Shown piece by piece: positions 17,893 through 34,165 of a stretch of 38,736 nucleotides of DNA; position 1 is the stretch's first letter, and every line of letters starts with the position of its first letter. The notes beneath the pieces were generated by a model. It did no database searches. It was not told the DNA's origin and saw nothing but the letters and a program-made list of their open reading frames with translations. The DNA lies in NCBI GenBank assembly GCA_002401345.1, contig NVSU01000007.1, positions 1 to 38,736 of the forward strand. The letters run 5' to 3'. The position numbers were made by a program, and so were the translations under genes. Source of the DNA: Candidatus Wolfebacteria bacterium. Lineage in GTDB: Bacteria > Patescibacteriota > Minisyncoccia > Phycocordibacterales > NVSU01.

Positions 17893-18936
17893 CTATAGAG
17901 TGATCCTAAATCCGATCCCTAGAGACGGGTTAGAAAAAGTATATTTGCCTACTATGCCGAAATTTTTTATCGGTTCTACGTGCATGAGTATAGAATGATA
18001 TATGATCTCTCCAAAACCTATTTGGTATCCAATAGTAGGAAAGGGGAGTTCCTTGTTTTCAGCAAAATTATACACAAGTAATGCTCCATATGATATATCT
18101 CTTCCATATAATTTGATATTTTCATATCTCACACTTCCACCTAGGTATAATCTCTTTAATATTCGAAGGCCTACAGCTCCATCAAAGTATTCCAAATCAT
18201 GATTAATATCATCTATCTTTACTAATCCAAATCCATACACAAATTGAAAGAATACAAAACGACTATCTTTAGATACTTTTTTGTTAGTCAAAGTGTCATT
18301 TGATACGAGATGTATATCTTTCTTCACAGAGTCTATTTTGTGCTGTACTTCATCTATACGTTGATAGATAGAATCTAAATCTTTCCTCATGGAGTCTAAT
18401 TCATGCTCTTCATGACTTATGTTTTGAGACATAGAATCTAAATCTTTTTTCATATAGTCTACTTCATACTCTTCATCATTCATACTTTGACAGATAGAAT
18501 CTAAATCTTTCGCCAGCTCATTTCTTGTTTTTTGTCCAACAATGTAGTCATAGTTTTTATCTATTTTATTAGTTAAAATTATTCCCGTATGATATTTGTA
18601 GAGTTGATAGCTTCGAATCTTTTCTGAGAGTTTCCTTTCATTAGATACCATGCTGTCGTAAGGAATTCCATAGTACTCGAGAATAAATGAGAGCACAACA
18701 TTTAATCTAAATGAGGAGTGCTCCTGTATTTCTCTAGGGAGCCATTCTGATTCCTGATTAAAATCCTTTGTTTCGGAACCACTATACCATCCAACTGTTC
18801 TTTCTCCTGTGTAAATAGTATCGCCCCTACCAAAATAATTATCCACAGGAAGCTCTGTTGAGCATATAGAATTCTCCTGAGAGTAGCTTGAAGCAACTGC
18901 ACACACAAATGCGTATAGCATCAAAATTATTTTCAT
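17893..18936 (-). CDS. Secreted coiled-coil protein with a C-terminal beta-barrel-like region
   Basis: With the ATG at 18936 the protein has 347 residues. It opens with a signal peptide (MKIILMLYAFVCAVASSYSQ). Residues about 40-150 form a soluble domain. Three tandem 21-residue repeats starting LDSICQ, LDSMSQ and LDSIYQ form a coiled coil. The last 120 residues are alternating hydrophobic/aromatic strands (GFGLVKIDD, AVGLRILKRLYLGGSVRYEN) ending GIGFRITL, like a small outer-membrane barrel. The start is fixed by TTGACA-N17-TATAAA upstream. The architecture resembles Bacteroidota outer-membrane proteins and would be odd in a CPR cell envelope. Confidence 0.72.
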   Translation of the reverse strand: MKIILMLYAFVCAVASSYSQENSICSTELPVDNYFGRGDTIYTGERTVGWYSGSETKDFNQESEWLPREIQEHSSFRLNVVLSFILEYYGIPYDSMVSNERKLSEKIRSYQLYKYHTGIILTNKIDKNYDYIVGQKTRNELAKDLDSICQSMNDEEYEVDYMKKDLDSMSQNISHEEHELDSMRKDLDSIYQRIDEVQHKIDSVKKDIHLVSNDTLTNKKVSKDSRFVFFQFVYGFGLVKIDDINHDLEYFDGAVGLRILKRLYLGGSVRYENIKLYGRDISYGALLVYNFAENKELPFPTIGYQIGFGEIIYHSILMHVEPIKNFGIVGKYTFSNPSLGIGFRITL

Positions 18937-19163: not shown

Positions 19164-20264
19164 ATGAAACACAAATTTGGACCAGAATATATTGTTGAAG
19201 TGTATGACCCTAAAATTAATATGCGGGGTTTTTTAGTAATTGATAATACTATTATGGGTCCCGGCAAGGGAGGAATCCGCATGACGGAGAATGTAACTAA
19301 GGAGGAAGTGGGAAGACTGGCACAAACTATGACATGGAAAAATGCGCTTATAGATATTCCTTTTGGTGGTGCAAAAGCGGGAATCGTATGGCCTGGAGGG
19401 TCCGAAAAATTAAAAAAACAATATATGCAAAGTTTTGCTAAAGCCATTGAGATATTTACGCCTAAAAAATATATTTCTGCACCCGATGTGAATACCGGTG
19501 AAAAGGAAATGCAATGGTTTGTTGAAGCAACTGGTAAATGGAACTCAGCAACTGGGAAACCCTCAAACTATTGCACAAAGGCATCAAATAAAAGCGCGAA
19601 AAAATGTGGCTTACCACATGAATTAGGAAGTACAGGATTTGGTGTGGCTCAGTCAGCAATTACGGCGGCGAAGCTTATGGGTCTTGATATTAAAAAGACA
19701 ACAGTTGCAATCGAAGGCTTTGGCAATGTCGGAAGTTTTGCGTTTAAATATCTTAGGGACGCAGGGGCAAAGGTCATCGCAGTCGCAAACAGAAAGGGAA
19801 CAATCGTAAATAAAAAAGGATTAAAAAAAAGAGATGTCAGTGCCGTAAATTTAAAGAAAAAGAAAAAACTTGACCATGAGTATATATTTGGTTTGGACGT
19901 TGATATTTTAATTCCTGCTTCAGTAACTGATGTAATTAATGAAAAAAATAAAAATAAAATTAAAGCAAAAATTATCATTGAAGGTGCTAATATTCCTATG
20001 AAAGATAAAATTGAAAAGGAGTTATTTAAAAAAGGAGTATTAATTGTTCCAGATTTTGTAGCAAATGCTGGTGGGGTAATTTCTTCGTATGCTGAATATC
20101 GAGGGTTCAGTCCTGATAAAATGTTTGAATTGATACGAAAGAAAGTTGTAACAATGACCACACGTGTCATTGAAGAAAGTATAAAAAATAAAAAAAATCC
20201 CAGAGATGTTGGTTTAATGATAGCGAGGGCAAAGATTGAGGCAAAAATGAATAATATGCAATAA
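19164..20264 (+). CDS. Glu/Leu/Phe/Val dehydrogenase (short form)
   Basis: This NAD(P)-dependent amino-acid dehydrogenase interconverts a 2-oxoacid and an amino acid. The 366-residue protein carries GPGKGGIRM (32-40), the catalytic-lysine motif PFGGAKAGI (K71), APDVNTGEKEMQW (the essential Asp at 108), a Rossmann IEGFGNVGSFAF, and FVANAGGVISSYAEY. It is shorter than the usual 410-450 residues, mainly in the N-terminal part. Many Lys (KNKKNPR, LKKKKKLDHEY) are typical of AT-rich genomes. Glutamate dehydrogenase is the most likely activity, but leucine dehydrogenase cannot be excluded. It has a strong terminator. Confidence 0.88.
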   Translation: MKHKFGPEYIVEVYDPKINMRGFLVIDNTIMGPGKGGIRMTENVTKEEVGRLAQTMTWKNALIDIPFGGAKAGIVWPGGSEKLKKQYMQSFAKAIEIFTPKKYISAPDVNTGEKEMQWFVEATGKWNSATGKPSNYCTKASNKSAKKCGLPHELGSTGFGVAQSAITAAKLMGLDIKKTTVAIEGFGNVGSFAFKYLRDAGAKVIAVANRKGTIVNKKGLKKRDVSAVNLKKKKKLDHEYIFGLDVDILIPASVTDVINEKNKNKIKAKIIIEGANIPMKDKIEKELFKKGVLIVPDFVANAGGVISSYAEYRGFSPDKMFELIRKKVVTMTTRVIEESIKNKKNPRDVGLMIARAKIEAKMNNMQ

Positions 20265-20300
20265 AAAATCCCCACTCATTAGAGAGTGGGGATTTTTTAT
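20263..20300 (+). terminator. Terminator of the dehydrogenase gene
   Basis: AAAAAATCCCCACTC and GAGTGGGGATTTTTT form a 15-bp stem. The gene's TAA overlaps the first A of the stem. Confidence 0.93.
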
Positions 20301-20368
20301 TGTATACAAGAGATATGTTCTATAAACAAAACGAATATTTAAATCTGAGCCTAAAAATCACATATGTA

Positions 20369-20377
20369 TGATAGAAT
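20369..20377 (+). promoter_or_regulatory. Extended -10 promoter for a 43-residue membrane peptide
   Basis: TGATAGAAT ends eight bases before the ATG at 20386. Confidence 0.5.
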
Positions 20378-20385
20378 ATTTATAT

Positions 20386-20517
20386 ATGAATATTCCTAAA
20401 AAATTTCAATCCGTATTGTTATTTATAGTGATAATCCTAATAGGAGTTGGTTTGCATATAATTCTAGACCCTGATAATGCTTCAGGAATCTTAGATGCAA
20501 CAGTACTCCTACGTTAA
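20386..20517 (+). CDS. 43-residue single-pass membrane peptide
   Basis: The peptide starts MNIPKKFQSVLLFIVIILIG and continues VGLHIILDPDNASGILDATV to LLR. One membrane helix (about residues 9-27) follows a short basic stretch, with a polar tail that may face outside. Support comes from an extended -10 box eight bases upstream and a terminator about 90 bases downstream. No family is recognised; it may be an uncharacterised small membrane protein. Confidence 0.55.
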   Translation: MNIPKKFQSVLLFIVIILIGVGLHIILDPDNASGILDATVLLR

Positions 20518-20604
20518 GTGAGCTGTACTCTATGCCTTTTAATACCAAGGGTTTTACCCAGACAAAACTTGTCACATAATTCTATAGTTTATATAATTAA
20601 AGCA

Positions 20605-20654
20605 GCGTTATAATTGTGATTAACACCAGTTATCATAGTTGTGGCGTTTTTTTT
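20605..20654 (+). terminator. Terminator downstream of the membrane peptide
   Basis: CGTTATAATT pairs with AGTTGTGGCG, largely through G-U pairs, with TTAAC/GTTA further in, followed by T8. Confidence 0.65.
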
Positions 20655-20743
20655 GTGCACGCCATTAAATATTTATCATATGGATTTTAATAAATAAAAC
20701 TCCTAATAATCCATCACGGTTAATAGTTAATGCAATAAAAAAT

Positions 20744-21754
20744 ATGAATAAAAAAATACTAATTAGAGATTTATTGATTCTTTTTTCTATTGTTTCTAGC
20801 ATTTTTGTAATTACATTTCTACGTCCTGCCCCAGAACAAGCATCCAAAAAAATAGAGAATATAACAGTAAAACTTAAATGGGTTCATCAGGCACAGTTTG
20901 CAGGTAATTATATTGCTCAAAAAAAAGGTTTTTATAAAGATGAAAGTTTACAGGTCAACCTTGTTCCGTTTTCTTTTGAGGATCCTACAATTGAAGCTGT
21001 TGCAGAAGGCAGAGCTTTGATAGGAATTTCCGGTGCTGACGAACTTCTTCTTGCACGCTCAAAAGGAGTTCCTTTACGAGCATTTGCTGTAATATTTAAA
21101 ACTAATCCCGTTGCTGCATATGCACTGAAGGAAAGTGGTATCACAAAACCACAAGATTTTATCGGAAAGACAGTTGGTTTACAAAGAGGAACGAATGTTG
21201 ATTTACTATATTTTGCAATGATGGAAAAATTAGGCATTGATCGAGAGAAAATAAATGAGGTGACGATTGGATATGATGCAACGGAGTTATTGAACGGTAC
21301 TACAGATGTTTCAACTGGATACATTATTAATGAACCATATGAAGTAATTGCAGCTGGACGTGAGGTCAATAAAATATTGATGGCGGATTATGGAGTGAAT
21401 ATGTATGCTGATGTACTTTTTGCCACTGAAGAGACAATAGAGAAACGACCAGAGCTTGTTGAAGGATTTTTACGAGCAACACTAAAAGGTTGGCAATATG
21501 CGATAGAGAATGAAGAAGAAGCTATTGATATTACGCTCACCTATGCTGCAGATAGGACACAAAGTCATGAGACGTATTTATTTACAACTTCTATACCGTT
21601 AATTCATACAGGCGATTCACCTCTTGGATGGATGGAAGAGGAAGAGTGGGATAGAATTCATGATATTTTGTTAGAACAGAATATTCTCAACAAAAAAATG
21701 AATAGCAAGGATGCATATACGATGAAGTTTTTAAAAGAAATCTACATAAACTAA
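20744..21754 (+). CDS. NMT1/THI5-like solute-binding protein, membrane-anchored
   Basis: The protein has 336 residues. An N-terminal hydrophobic helix (about 7-26) anchors or exports it; no lipobox Cys is present. From residue 40 it follows the NMT1/THI5-like binding-protein pattern: VKLKWVHQAQFAGNYIAQKK then GFYKDESL, which in relatives forms part of a pyrimidine or riboflavin-type ligand pocket, and ISGADELLLARSKGVPL. No ABC permease or ATPase gene is nearby. The next gene, seven bases downstream, is a histidine kinase, so a sensing role is more likely than transport. Confidence 0.85.
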   Translation: MNKKILIRDLLILFSIVSSIFVITFLRPAPEQASKKIENITVKLKWVHQAQFAGNYIAQKKGFYKDESLQVNLVPFSFEDPTIEAVAEGRALIGISGADELLLARSKGVPLRAFAVIFKTNPVAAYALKESGITKPQDFIGKTVGLQRGTNVDLLYFAMMEKLGIDREKINEVTIGYDATELLNGTTDVSTGYIINEPYEVIAAGREVNKILMADYGVNMYADVLFATEETIEKRPELVEGFLRATLKGWQYAIENEEEAIDITLTYAADRTQSHETYLFTTSIPLIHTGDSPLGWMEEEEWDRIHDILLEQNILNKKMNSKDAYTMKFLKEIYIN

Positions 21755-29283: not shown

Positions 29284-29317
29284 AATAAAAAAAGCATCAG
29301 CTTTCAGCTGATGCTTT
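29284..29317 (-). terminator. Terminator overlapping the stop codon of the gene at 29297
   Basis: AAAGCATCAGCT and AGCTGATGCTTT form a 12-bp stem with a 3-base loop. The A-tract on the left is the minus-strand U-run. It can also stop transcription from the left. Confidence 0.85.
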
Positions 29318-29878
29318 GTTGTCTCTTTTATCTTGTGCTTTATCCTTTTCTTCTTCTCTTAGAAATTCAGCAGGAATTTTCTTTGTCTTCCAAATTCCTT
29401 TCGTGGGATCCTCTAAGCTCATACTAATCCTAAGTAATACATACATTAGAAATGTCAGTAAAAAAATAGAGACACCTCCAGATAGCGGTGTGTCGTATTT
29501 GGTCATTACTGCTACTAAAAATAGAAGAAAACTCATTGTTCCCATAGCCAAGTGATACCACATAGGCAATCCTTGTCTTCTTGCTTTAACAAAAGCTTTT
29601 TTATCCTTGTCGAGAATACTTGCAATAATATTGTTGTATTGCGTCATATTTGCACGCAATGCTTGAACCGATGCGAGTGCGTAGATGACTCCAATATTGC
29701 CCATAAATTGTTTTGCAAGTTCTTGATTCTTCCAGCTTACCAGTATTTCTAGATTCCATAATATATAACATATAAATGCAATAAATACGGCAACAAGGGC
29801 TGATTCACACATAAGTCCAATATAGCTAAGTAAAATACGAAACTTATCTGATCTGAAATATTCCGGTATCCACTTCAT
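29297..29878 (-). CDS. Membrane protein with four helices and a basic/acidic tail
   Basis: The protein has 193 residues. Helices at about 13-40, 62-80, 110-125 and 133-152 alternate with charged loops. The tail (residues 165-193) is highly charged (EEEKDKAQDKRDNKASAES). No family is recognised. The stop codon lies within the terminator hairpin. The leader carries GAACCTTTAAAAA eight bases before the ATG. Confidence 0.75.
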   Translation of the reverse strand: MKWIPEYFRSDKFRILLSYIGLMCESALVAVFIAFICYILWNLEILVSWKNQELAKQFMGNIGVIYALASVQALRANMTQYNNIIASILDKDKKAFVKARRQGLPMWYHLAMGTMSFLLFLVAVMTKYDTPLSGGVSIFLLTFLMYVLLRISMSLEDPTKGIWKTKKIPAEFLREEEKDKAQDKRDNKASAES

Positions 29879-29948: not shown

Positions 29949-30045
29949 TTTGTATAATGTTGCAATAAAAAAATTAGGGTTCTTTTTATTTATATAATCT
30001 ATGATACAGTAGGCTTAGAAAGTAAATTAATAAATATGAGTCGCT

Positions 30046-31269
30046 ATGAGACAGTTTAAAATCAGTAAATCTATTACTCCTCGTGATAGTATAGTAGTGA
30101 ATAAATATTTAAAAGAAGTTTCAATGTTTCCAGTACTTGAAATCAATGAAGAGGCCATTGTTGCTAGAAAAGCTAGAAATGGTGATAAGGATTCGTTTGA
30201 TTTACTGATTAATTCAAATCTTCGATTTGTTGTGTCGGTTGCGAAACAATATCAGAATCAAGGTCTTTCATTACCTGATCTAATAAATGAAGGAAATCTT
30301 GGATTAATAAAGGCTGCGCAGAGATTTGATGAGACGAGAGGTTTTAGATTTATTTCCTACGCAGTGTGGTGGATACGTCAAGGTATTCGAGCTGGATTGT
30401 ATGATATAGGAAATGCGATACGATTACCGCATAATCAAATATCCTGGTTGGTAAAAATTGAGAAGACTGATTTGTTGTTACGACATCACCTTGAAAGAGA
30501 ACCATCAACTAAAGAGATTGCAGATGAATTGGGTTGGGATGAAAATAAAATCCTAAAGACGAACAAAAGTCATCGTACTATTTTTTCATTAGAAAGTTCA
30601 CTGAATGGCAATGCTGAATATTCTGTACGGTCATTACATGATGTGATTGAGAATACTGATTCCATTCAACCTGATGATGTGCTTCTTAAGGAGTCACTAA
30701 GTAGCGAGATTGAAAAACGCGTGTCGATTTTGCCAGAACGTGACAGGAGAATACTACTTGCATACTATGGTATTAATCGTGAGTACAAACCTACACTTGA
30801 GGAAGTTGGCGAACAATTTGGCATCACTCATCAGGCAGTTGGATATATAATCACAAGATCAATACGAAGATTGAGAAGAAGAAAGGATATAGACGTAATC
30901 GATTCGGTCACCCCCATACCTCCATGTGATAACATTTTTACGCATAATGGAAATGGTAAAGATGAAGTTATGGAAGAAAAGAGTGAGCCGTTGATCGAAG
31001 CTCCTCCGAAGGAGTGTACGCTTAGAAAATCTATTAATCCAAGGAGTATATATCATGAAGGTATCTATGGTTTGATTTATAAGGATATCACATGCATCGA
31101 AAATGCTCGTGATACTCTGTATGAGTATAAATTTACCTATCTTGCAGATAAGCTCGATGAGGCTCTTAAAAAGAAGCGATTTGAGAATAGAGCAGTTAAT
31201 TATTTTCTGAAAGATAGACCTGATATTGAAGTAGAGGTAAGGTTAATAACAGAAGAAAGGGGAATATAA
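30046..31269 (+). CDS. Sigma-70 family factor of Bacteroidota type with a C-terminal extension
   Basis: The 407-residue protein begins MRQFKISKSITPRDS, nearly the opening of Bacteroidota primary sigma factors (MRQLKITKSIT). Region 2 is very strongly conserved (FVVSVAKQYQNQGLSLPDLI, then NEGNLGLIKAA and FISYAVWWIRQ). Region 3 follows, with REPSTKEIADELG, and region 4 (about 225-280). The region 4.2 helix reads FGITHQAVGYIITRSIRRLR where the family usually has TRERVRQI, so -35 recognition may differ. Residues 281-407 are an extra domain (YHEGIYGLIYKDITCIE) that I do not recognise. Its role could be an alternative sigma factor. Confidence 0.9.
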   Translation: MRQFKISKSITPRDSIVVNKYLKEVSMFPVLEINEEAIVARKARNGDKDSFDLLINSNLRFVVSVAKQYQNQGLSLPDLINEGNLGLIKAAQRFDETRGFRFISYAVWWIRQGIRAGLYDIGNAIRLPHNQISWLVKIEKTDLLLRHHLEREPSTKEIADELGWDENKILKTNKSHRTIFSLESSLNGNAEYSVRSLHDVIENTDSIQPDDVLLKESLSSEIEKRVSILPERDRRILLAYYGINREYKPTLEEVGEQFGITHQAVGYIITRSIRRLRRRKDIDVIDSVTPIPPCDNIFTHNGNGKDEVMEEKSEPLIEAPPKECTLRKSINPRSIYHEGIYGLIYKDITCIENARDTLYEYKFTYLADKLDEALKKKRFENRAVNYFLKDRPDIEVEVRLITEERGI

Positions 31270-31370: not shown

Positions 31371-31398
31371 AAAAAAAGCGAGCTGTTATGCTCGCTTT
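31371..31398 (-). terminator. Terminator of the TrpF-like gene
   Basis: AAAGCGAGC (31375-31383) pairs with GCTCGCTTT (31390-31398); the A-tract on the left is the minus-strand U-run. Confidence 0.85.
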
Positions 31399-31420: not shown

Positions 31421-32218
31421 CTAATAGAATATTTGGTGTGTCTGTTTTATATACAGATACGCTTTTGTGTGGTTCATAATACCATTGCTGTCGAGAATTT
31501 TAGCCTGTGCATCTATTGAAAGATGATTAAATCCCGCATTCTTGACCTCTCTTAAATGATCTAGATCACGATCGTTTGGACCGAAACCTCCCGCAATTCC
31601 AATTCCCATTTCTTTAAGAATAGTGTAATTAGAATAAATCTCCTCAAGATATGCAATTATAGTTTTCGGATCGAATGGTCTACCATATCCGCCACTCGGA
31701 TCGAGAAGCACATAGTCAACGAGGTGACTATATTCTGCAAGTCTCTCGACTAATGCACTAGGAGAATGATTGATTTTTTTAAATGCATATCCACCAATTT
31801 GAAGCACGATTTTCATTTTTCCATATGCACTCTTATATTTGACCAAAGTATCTATGTCAGGCCAGGACACATTGAGTTGAAATCCGTGAAGATTTTTACC
31901 GCCAAGCTCAGTCAGATGCATTAACTCAATATATAATTCTTCCTTTTTGCTAGAATTAAAATGAATTAAATTTAAATACCGAGAATTATCCTTAAAGATA
32001 TTACCGATATATTGAACTCGCGGGTAGAGATGTGGCCATCTATTAGTCTTCCCAGAGAGTGTAGATGTGCTTGCGAGGACACCAATCATAATTTTAGTAT
32101 TAGATTTTTCCATGTCCGCATTAATGTGCTCATTAATGTTTCTCAGACATCCTTCTAATTGATCTACTTGGCATCTTTTTGTGAATCCTGTAATTCCTAT
32201 GTAGTGTGAATGTTTCAT
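31421..32218 (-). CDS. TIM-barrel protein, phosphoribosylanthranilate-isomerase-like
   Basis: With the start at MKHSHYIGITGF the protein has 265 residues. The opening, VDYVLLDPSGGYGRPFD (about 183-199) and GIGIAGGFGPND (about 221-232) follow the TrpF barrel, whose last strands bind the substrate phosphate. The usual N-terminal catalytic Cys is missing at its place and no other Trp gene is present, so it is probably a relative with another substrate. The upstream ATG options overlap the TGGACA-N17-TATATT promoter. Confidence 0.6.
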   Translation of the reverse strand: MKHSHYIGITGFTKRCQVDQLEGCLRNINEHINADMEKSNTKIMIGVLASTSTLSGKTNRWPHLYPRVQYIGNIFKDNSRYLNLIHFNSSKKEELYIELMHLTELGGKNLHGFQLNVSWPDIDTLVKYKSAYGKMKIVLQIGGYAFKKINHSPSALVERLAEYSHLVDYVLLDPSGGYGRPFDPKTIIAYLEEIYSNYTILKEMGIGIAGGFGPNDRDLDHLREVKNAGFNHLSIDAQAKILDSNGIMNHTKAYLYIKQTHQIFY

Positions 32219-32248
32219 TTTAAATAGCTTTAGTTTATATCTGTTCAC

Positions 32249-32277
32249 AATATACATGATATGATTTTTACTGTCCA
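32249..32277 (-). promoter_or_regulatory. -35/-10 promoter of the TrpF-like gene
   Basis: Minus strand: TGGACA (plus TGTCCA 32272-32277), 17 bases, TATATT (plus AATATA 32249-32254). It places the start at 32218. Confidence 0.7.
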
Positions 32278-32311
32278 TGATGATGATTTGGAAATTCAAC
32301 AAAGAAGATAA

Positions 32312-33418: not shown

Positions 33419-34165
33419 ATGAAAAAGGATATAAAACACAAAATACTTGTATATGGAGTTAATCCAGTTGCCGAATTAGTGAATAGTGGGGCAACAAATA
33501 TTACAAGGATATACATGCAGGATTCGTCAGATAAACCAATACTGCAGCAGATCAGAAGCTATGCACAGAAGCATAGTATTGGAGTTAATTCAGTTTCAAA
33601 TAAATATATAAAGAATCTAGTTGGAGATGTTGCGCATCAAGGTGTAGTAGCACTTCTGCGGTCATTTGAGTATGTCGAATTTAACAAATGGGTTGAATCA
33701 CTCGACATGTCTACTAATCCAGCAGTATTACTATTGGATGAAGTACAAGATCCACATAATGTCGGTGCAATGATTCGTTCTGCTGCAGCGTTTGGTTTAT
33801 CAGGGGTAATACTTCCATCTCATAGACAGTCTCCTGTGACAAATGCTGTATTTAAAAGTTCCGCAGGAACAGTGATGCATATACCTGTTATAAAAATAGG
33901 AAATGTAAATCAGATGTTAAAGAAGTTGAAAGAAATGGGCTTTTGGATTGTAGGAATACATCAGGATGGACATACAAAAATTAGTGAGCAGAAATTTGAT
34001 TCACCTACAGTACTAATCGTAGGAAATGAAGGATATGGAATCCGACAAAAGACACTTGAAATGTGTGACTTCACAGTACAAATTCCAATGAGCTCAGAAA
34101 TCGAATCTCTGAATGCTGCGGTGAGCACAGGTATTGCATGCTATGAATGGTCACGACAGCAATAA
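33419..34165 (+). CDS. rlmB: SpoU/TrmH-family RNA 2'-O-methyltransferase (RlmB-like)
   Basis: The protein has 248 residues. It has an N-terminal substrate-binding domain (ILVYGVNPVAELV) and a SPOUT C domain with motif 1 LDEVQDPHNVGAMIRSAAAF, motif 2 VLIVGNEGYGI and motif 3 QIPMSSEIESLNAAVSTGIA. This knotted fold binds SAM and methylates ribose in RNA. RlmB, which modifies G2251 of 23S rRNA in E. coli, is the closest match, but other TrmH-like RNAs cannot be excluded. Confidence 0.9.
   Translation: MKKDIKHKILVYGVNPVAELVNSGATNITRIYMQDSSDKPILQQIRSYAQKHSIGVNSVSNKYIKNLVGDVAHQGVVALLRSFEYVEFNKWVESLDMSTNPAVLLLDEVQDPHNVGAMIRSAAAFGLSGVILPSHRQSPVTNAVFKSSAGTVMHIPVIKIGNVNQMLKKLKEMGFWIVGIHQDGHTKISEQKFDSPTVLIVGNEGYGIRQKTLEMCDFTVQIPMSSEIESLNAAVSTGIACYEWSRQQ

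Follow-up and report, generated by a model that had tools for sequence, protein, structure and literature searches.

One gene in the window, by which we mean the whole 38,736-nucleotide stretch of Candidatus Wolfebacteria DNA that was analysed, encodes a Bacteroidota-type sigma-70 factor whose -35 recognition helix has been replaced and whose C-terminus carries a long additional tail (Table 1). It is moderately probable, judging from the pattern of kept and changed residues, that this protein (hereafter the window sigma) is an alternative sigma factor that relies on the -10 element and has stopped reading the standard -35 box. The source genome (G000; 897 kb, 24 contigs) has a separate RpoD on contig C13, which is the main sigma of the cell, and the window sigma is an additional one.

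Table 1. Features of the window sigma gene and its surroundings (positions in the window).
Feature	Position	Strand	Basis or remark
CDS, Bacteroidota-type sigma-70 factor with C-terminal extension	30046..31269	+	407 aa, ATG start, intact ORF
Sigma regions 2.1-2.4 (residues 49-120), core-binding and -10 reading/melting module, conserved (FISYAVWWIRQ)	30190..30405	+	pLDDT mostly 90-98
Sigma region 3 (residues 121-200), partly diverged	30406..30645	+	16/30 conserved columns
Sigma region 4 (residues 221-280), helix-turn-helix predicted intact	30706..30885	+	Pfam PF04545, 38 bits; helices 251-258 and 262-279, pLDDT ~97
Altered -35 recognition helix THQAVGYI (residues 261-268)	30826..30849	+	Alignment; contacts from PMC2613000, PMC4943231
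C-terminal extension (residues 286-407): ~50-residue low-confidence linker, then predicted helical tail 339-405 (pLDDT ~45-70)	30901..31266	+	Coding by codon pattern
Intrinsic terminator directly 3' of the stop codon	31268-31300	+	-15.9 kcal/mol
SpoU-type rRNA methyltransferase; same neighbour beside the second sigma of genome G083	33419..34165	+	

A preliminary description of this DNA, made from the letters alone, had reported a sigma factor with a changed helix and extra C-terminal residues. The results confirmed this: the frame is open throughout, the extension is coding, and Pfam regions 2, 3 and 4 passed their cut-offs (Sigma70_r2, 58.6 bits against 24; Sigma70_r4, 38.2 bits against 24.1), with region 1.2 below its cut-off. 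The best NCBIfam score was to RpoS (TIGR02394; 206.8 bits), below the curated cut-off of 378.7. Structure prediction with a 64-sequence input folded regions 2 and 4 confidently, the changed helix included, and gave the tail low confidence; a single-sequence prediction, with a pLDDT of 39, was uninformative. The top matches of a fold search with the predicted structure were all sigma factors. The composition of the gene fits its genome, its neighbours are housekeeping genes, and the strong terminator at the stop codon makes it look like a single transcription unit. A seven-codon frame (MSRYETV, 30036-30059), out of register with the sigma gene, runs across its start codon and may be a leader peptide or chance. 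On the minus strand, a hairpin with a T tail (31375-31398) resembles a terminator for the convergent gene at 31421-32302, and a strong promoter-like site (29948-29920, TTGACA-17-TATAGT, 11/12 match) lies ahead of a membrane-protein gene (29297-29878).

The main change lies in region 4.2. The window sigma lacks the TRERVRQI-type recognition helix of the Bacteroidota RpoD lineage and reads THQAVGYI in its place, as the preliminary description had stated. In E. coli sigma70 numbering the changes are R584H, E585Q, R586A, R588G and Q589Y. Among 63 aligned relatives, E585 and R588 are each present in 62 and Q589 in 61. T583, I590 and L598 are unchanged, and the helix is followed by basic residues. 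In E. coli, R584 and E585 are base-contacting residues (PMC2613000, PMC4943231), and E585Q and R588H relax specificity at -33 (PMC2613000). By this analogy, a new -35 sequence would be no more likely than loss or relaxation of -35 reading.

The remaining changes are spread unevenly along the protein. The window sigma keeps 31 of 34 conserved columns in regions 2.1-2.2, 15 of 26 in the N-terminus, 16 of 30 in region 3 and 9 of 19 in region 4.2. The statement that the opening and regions 2-3 closely follow Bacteroidota RpoD thus holds for regions 2.1-2.2 and is weaker for the N-terminus and region 3. The Bacteroidota-type -10 residues (F425, F427, Y430, W433, W434 and Q437) are all present. Over 130 near-invariant columns, 40 are changed in the window sigma and 12 in a second Bacteroidota-type sigma of the same genome, encoded on contig C8.

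Bacteroidota RpoD stops about 10 residues past region 4, whereas the window sigma continues for 122 residues, close to the 125 first estimated. This frame is not a product of chance, since only 2 of 20,000 shuffles remained free of stops and the GC content at the three codon positions (0.47/0.33/0.30) matches that of the sigma part (0.47/0.34/0.26). No convincing relative of the extension was found in Pfam, PHROGs, PDB sequences, the 397 genomes of the order, viral contigs, phages or plasmids. The other second Bacteroidota-type sigmas (G083, G186, G235 and G441) lack it wherever their C-terminal end is available.

The ancestry of the window sigma was assessed by searches, diagnostic residues and trees. 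Among the best 80 matches kept from a search over 84,980 species, nearly all were from Bacteroidota or their neighbours; the peptide patterns used may favour Bacteroidota. The Bacteroidota matches had 45-51% identity over residues 1-277. Bacteroidota RpoD and CPR RpoD are each fixed for a different residue at 50 columns; there the window sigma has 28 Bacteroidota and 4 CPR states, and the genome's own RpoD has 3 and 44, respectively. At the 33 columns where neither E. coli RpoD nor RpoS has the Bacteroidota state (both score 0 by construction), the window sigma has that state at 17 and the own RpoD at 2. The trees placed the window sigma on the Bacteroidota/viral side of a branch with 100/100 support, but on a very long branch of 1.7-2.5 changes per column. 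AU tests rejected neither a link with the C8 sigma (p 0.12) nor a link with the second copy of G083 (p 0.39), nor attachment on the stem towards CPR RpoD (p 0.44-0.45). With so long a branch, these tests are compatible with several placements of the window sigma. The Bacteroidota type proposed earlier is borne out by the shared derived residues, which set the protein apart from CPR RpoD; the AU tests alone still allow the stem position. In the same comparison, records titled Polynucleobacter and Bifidobacterium breve (L054, L086) carry Bacteroidota RpoD genes and probably represent MAGs with a wrong name or with contamination.

Six proteins with sigma region 2 were found in the source genome. 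The search for a second sigma factor showed that the window sigma is not the sole sigma-70, there being the separate RpoD and four further region 2 proteins. The RpoD on C13 is of the standard kind, with a TRERIRQI helix and region 1.1, and groups with CPR RpoD in the tree. The C8 sigma (289 aa) has an intact helix (TRERIRQI). The others are a sigma-helicase fusion on contig C6 and two ECF sigmas. Relatives of the same order, with genomes of 0.4-1.1 Mb, sizes that agree with CPR/Patescibacteria, have 1-7 region 2 proteins each; six is high but not unique. The C13 RpoD (L001, G000:C13) starts with repeated KKKKNPPAGGKKKTAPARA-like units. The fusion on C6 (L230:4207-6594; G000:C6, ~19206-21593) is a single frame of ~796 aa in which a sigma-70 with regions 1.2-4 (TRERIRQI) is combined with a ResIII/SF2 helicase; long open frames containing sigma region 2 are also present in G064 and G075. 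Two proteins on contig C3 (L010 and L012, ~35.2 kb and 11.0 kb) have sigma region 4 without region 2; one carries HARE-HTH, and the other carries HTH_17 and an RNA polymerase alpha C-terminal domain.

Promoter sequences were counted in the DNA upstream of 169 genes, drawn from 352 kb of the source genome. TTGACA was seen 18 times against 7.9 expected, and TGnTATAAT 7 times against 1.7 expected. The Bacteroidota promoter class TAnnTTTG was not enriched upstream of these genes (10 seen, 17.1 expected). These counts indicate that the bulk of the promoters suit RpoD. A regulon of the Bacteroidota-type sigmas, if any, would by this count be small or differently marked.

The surroundings of the C8 sigma bear on the age of the acquisition. 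In the source genome this gene lies between a membrane-protein gene and mreD-PBP-GreA-LysS. In G083, from another family, a sigma gene occupies the same place beside mreD-PBP-GreA-LysS, and in G087, from a third family, it lies one gene away; in G219 a sigma gene lies ~4 kb from GreA-LysS. No sigma was present in the 1.5 kb examined beside PBP in 29 other sampled relatives. The best reading of the shared site is a single acquisition, passed down from a common ancestor. Its presence in three families indicates that the acquisition is old, and neither recent nor a contamination. The window gene itself was probably not newly imported but is an additional copy that has diverged. Gene flow from Bacteroidota, as first suggested, thus stands for the sigma lineage; it was not recent, and the gene is already inherited vertically in part of the order (three families). 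The Bacteroidota-like envelope protein at 17893, once cited in its support, does not help: a search of 23 Bacteroidota genomes gave no match, no Pfam family reached its cut-off, and only the coiled-coil part matched, weakly, in two relatives. Contamination as a source of the window gene and C8 was ruled out by the mraZ-LysS-GreA-PBP neighbours, the conserved synteny and the genome-like composition. Bacteroidota-type sigmas above the threshold used were rare, occurring in 8 of 397 genomes of the order, the source genome included, and in 6 of 380 genomes phylum-wide, a set that overlaps the former and includes two ordinary CPR RpoDs. One of the eight, G029 (L015, G029:C31, 3217 bases), has a sigma with all 50 of the 50 Bacteroidota states and may be contamination.

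Five genomes (G000, G083, G186, G235 and G441) each have two Bacteroidota-type sigmas. Within every pair, the helix of one copy is intact (in G441 it reads TQEKVRQI), and that of the other is altered to a degree that ranges from slight to complete. Besides THQAVGYI in G000, the altered helices read TPERVRQI in G083 (mild), TFTRVDQI in G186 and SGEVIRRI in G235, and G441 has no recognisable motif. G343 has a single altered copy that ends at the contig edge. The placement of all altered second copies in one clade was disfavoured (p 0.02), so the alteration of the helix probably arose more than once. A SpoU methyltransferase gene lies 2.1 kb from the window gene and 0.2 kb from the second copy of G083. 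This shared neighbour, with a rough chance likelihood of a few percent, hints at common descent of the two. Many IMG/VR contigs also carry Bacteroidota-type sigmas. Two adjacent genes of this type were seen in L142, L143, L144, L150, L152, L153, L154, L156, L158, L159 and L167, and several of these pairs consist of one helix-canonical and one more diverged sigma. Viral matches of 1.8 kb that appeared to be sigma genes interrupted by introns proved to be two adjacent sigma genes.

We believe that these data fit the following course of events. An ancestor of part of the order would have acquired a Bacteroidota-type sigma, directly or via phage, and in the source genome it would persist as two genes, the conservative C8 sigma and the fast-evolving window copy. 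The window sigma would bind core RNA polymerase via its intact regions 2.1-2.2 and would read and melt a -10 type element via its intact regions 2.3-2.4. The standard -35 base contacts would no longer be made. Promoter choice would depend on the -10 element together with relaxed or activator-dependent upstream contacts, or together with the new C-terminal tail. The tail would leave the complex next to the -35 region, where either it or an activator may supply the missing contact. A broader version, in which small-genome CPR bacteria have time and again retained two Bacteroidota-type sigmas, one helix-intact and one "-35-blind", and in which the tail of the blind sigma here replaces -35 reading in promoter selection, seems unlikely to us.

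Other explanations were weighed against this one. The new helix may instead read a different -35 sequence, so that a separate two-box promoter would give the window sigma a regulon of its own. We regard such retargeting as rather unlikely, even though the helix-turn-helix is predicted to be still folded (pLDDT ~97) and THQAVGYI, with T583, I590 and L598 kept and basic residues following, is plausible as a DNA-reading helix. Against it stand the simultaneous change of five contact or helix positions, the known relaxing effect of E585Q and of changes at R588 on reading, and the lack of a second promoter class upstream of the 169 genes, a count in which a small regulon would be missed. The gene may also be a spare copy under relaxed selection, decaying or antagonistic, which would retain core binding and do no more than titrate the core. 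The very long branch, the excess of changed near-invariant columns over C8, and a conserved C8 copy that could carry the function all speak for this. The 407-codon frame is nevertheless intact and has a terminator, the changes are uneven with regions 2.1-2.2 nearly untouched, and the extension retains its coding pattern; we consider decay quite improbable.

Two further explanations concern origin. A recently phage-borne sigma left in the chromosome would agree with the many IMG/VR contigs that carry such genes, some of which have two side by side, one of them with an altered helix. It is very unlikely, given the housekeeping neighbours, the genome-like composition, the sister C8 copy at a conserved chromosomal site and a C-terminal tail that was not found in the phage, plasmid and viral collections. 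The window sigma might also be a copy of the RpoD native to the CPR bacterium, so diverged that its likeness to the Bacteroidota type is only apparent; an attachment on the stem between the groups is not rejected by the AU test. The 28 to 4 split at the diagnostic columns, the presence of 17 of the 33 derived states (E. coli RpoD and RpoS have none, the own RpoD has 2), the MRQ-type N-terminus and the absence of region 1.1 all oppose this, and we hold it to be extremely improbable.

Little regulation is expected of small-genome CPR bacteria. The source genome, though small and from a CPR bacterium, has at least six sigma-70 proteins, two of which descend from a Bacteroidota-type main sigma. 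A sigma factor without its -35 contacts, but with the parts for core binding and the -10 element intact, offers a natural test of the role of region 4.2 in promoter choice, and the window sigma also offers one of whether an added tail can replace region 4.2. No paper on such a sigma was found in the literature searched. Promoter selection based on a tail, if true, would be a mode of sigma specificity without earlier description in that literature, as far as the searches show.

Compared with known systems, the window sigma is closest in body to Bacteroidota RpoD/sigma-A (~287 aa, which reads TAnnTTTG). Both have an MRQLKI-type N-terminus, no region 1.1 and the FISYAVWWIRQ -10 module; the window sigma differs in its replaced recognition helix, its 122-residue extension and its place as neither the sole nor the main sigma. 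The second sigmas of G083, G186, G235 and G441 (single in G343) share with it a Bacteroidota-type body, an altered region 4.2 and usually a helix-intact partner in the genome, but they lack the extension wherever their end is available, and a common clade is disfavoured. Like group 2 (RpoS-like) sigmas, it is a non-housekeeping relative of RpoD with regions 1.2-4; group 2 sigmas, in contrast, usually keep the RpoD recognition helix. ECF sigmas with C-terminal extensions also exist, for example ECF41 and ECF42, in which the extra domain may regulate the sigma. The window sigma resembles them in carrying an extra C-terminal domain after the sigma part; they differ in having no region 3, and the window extension has no match to a known domain.
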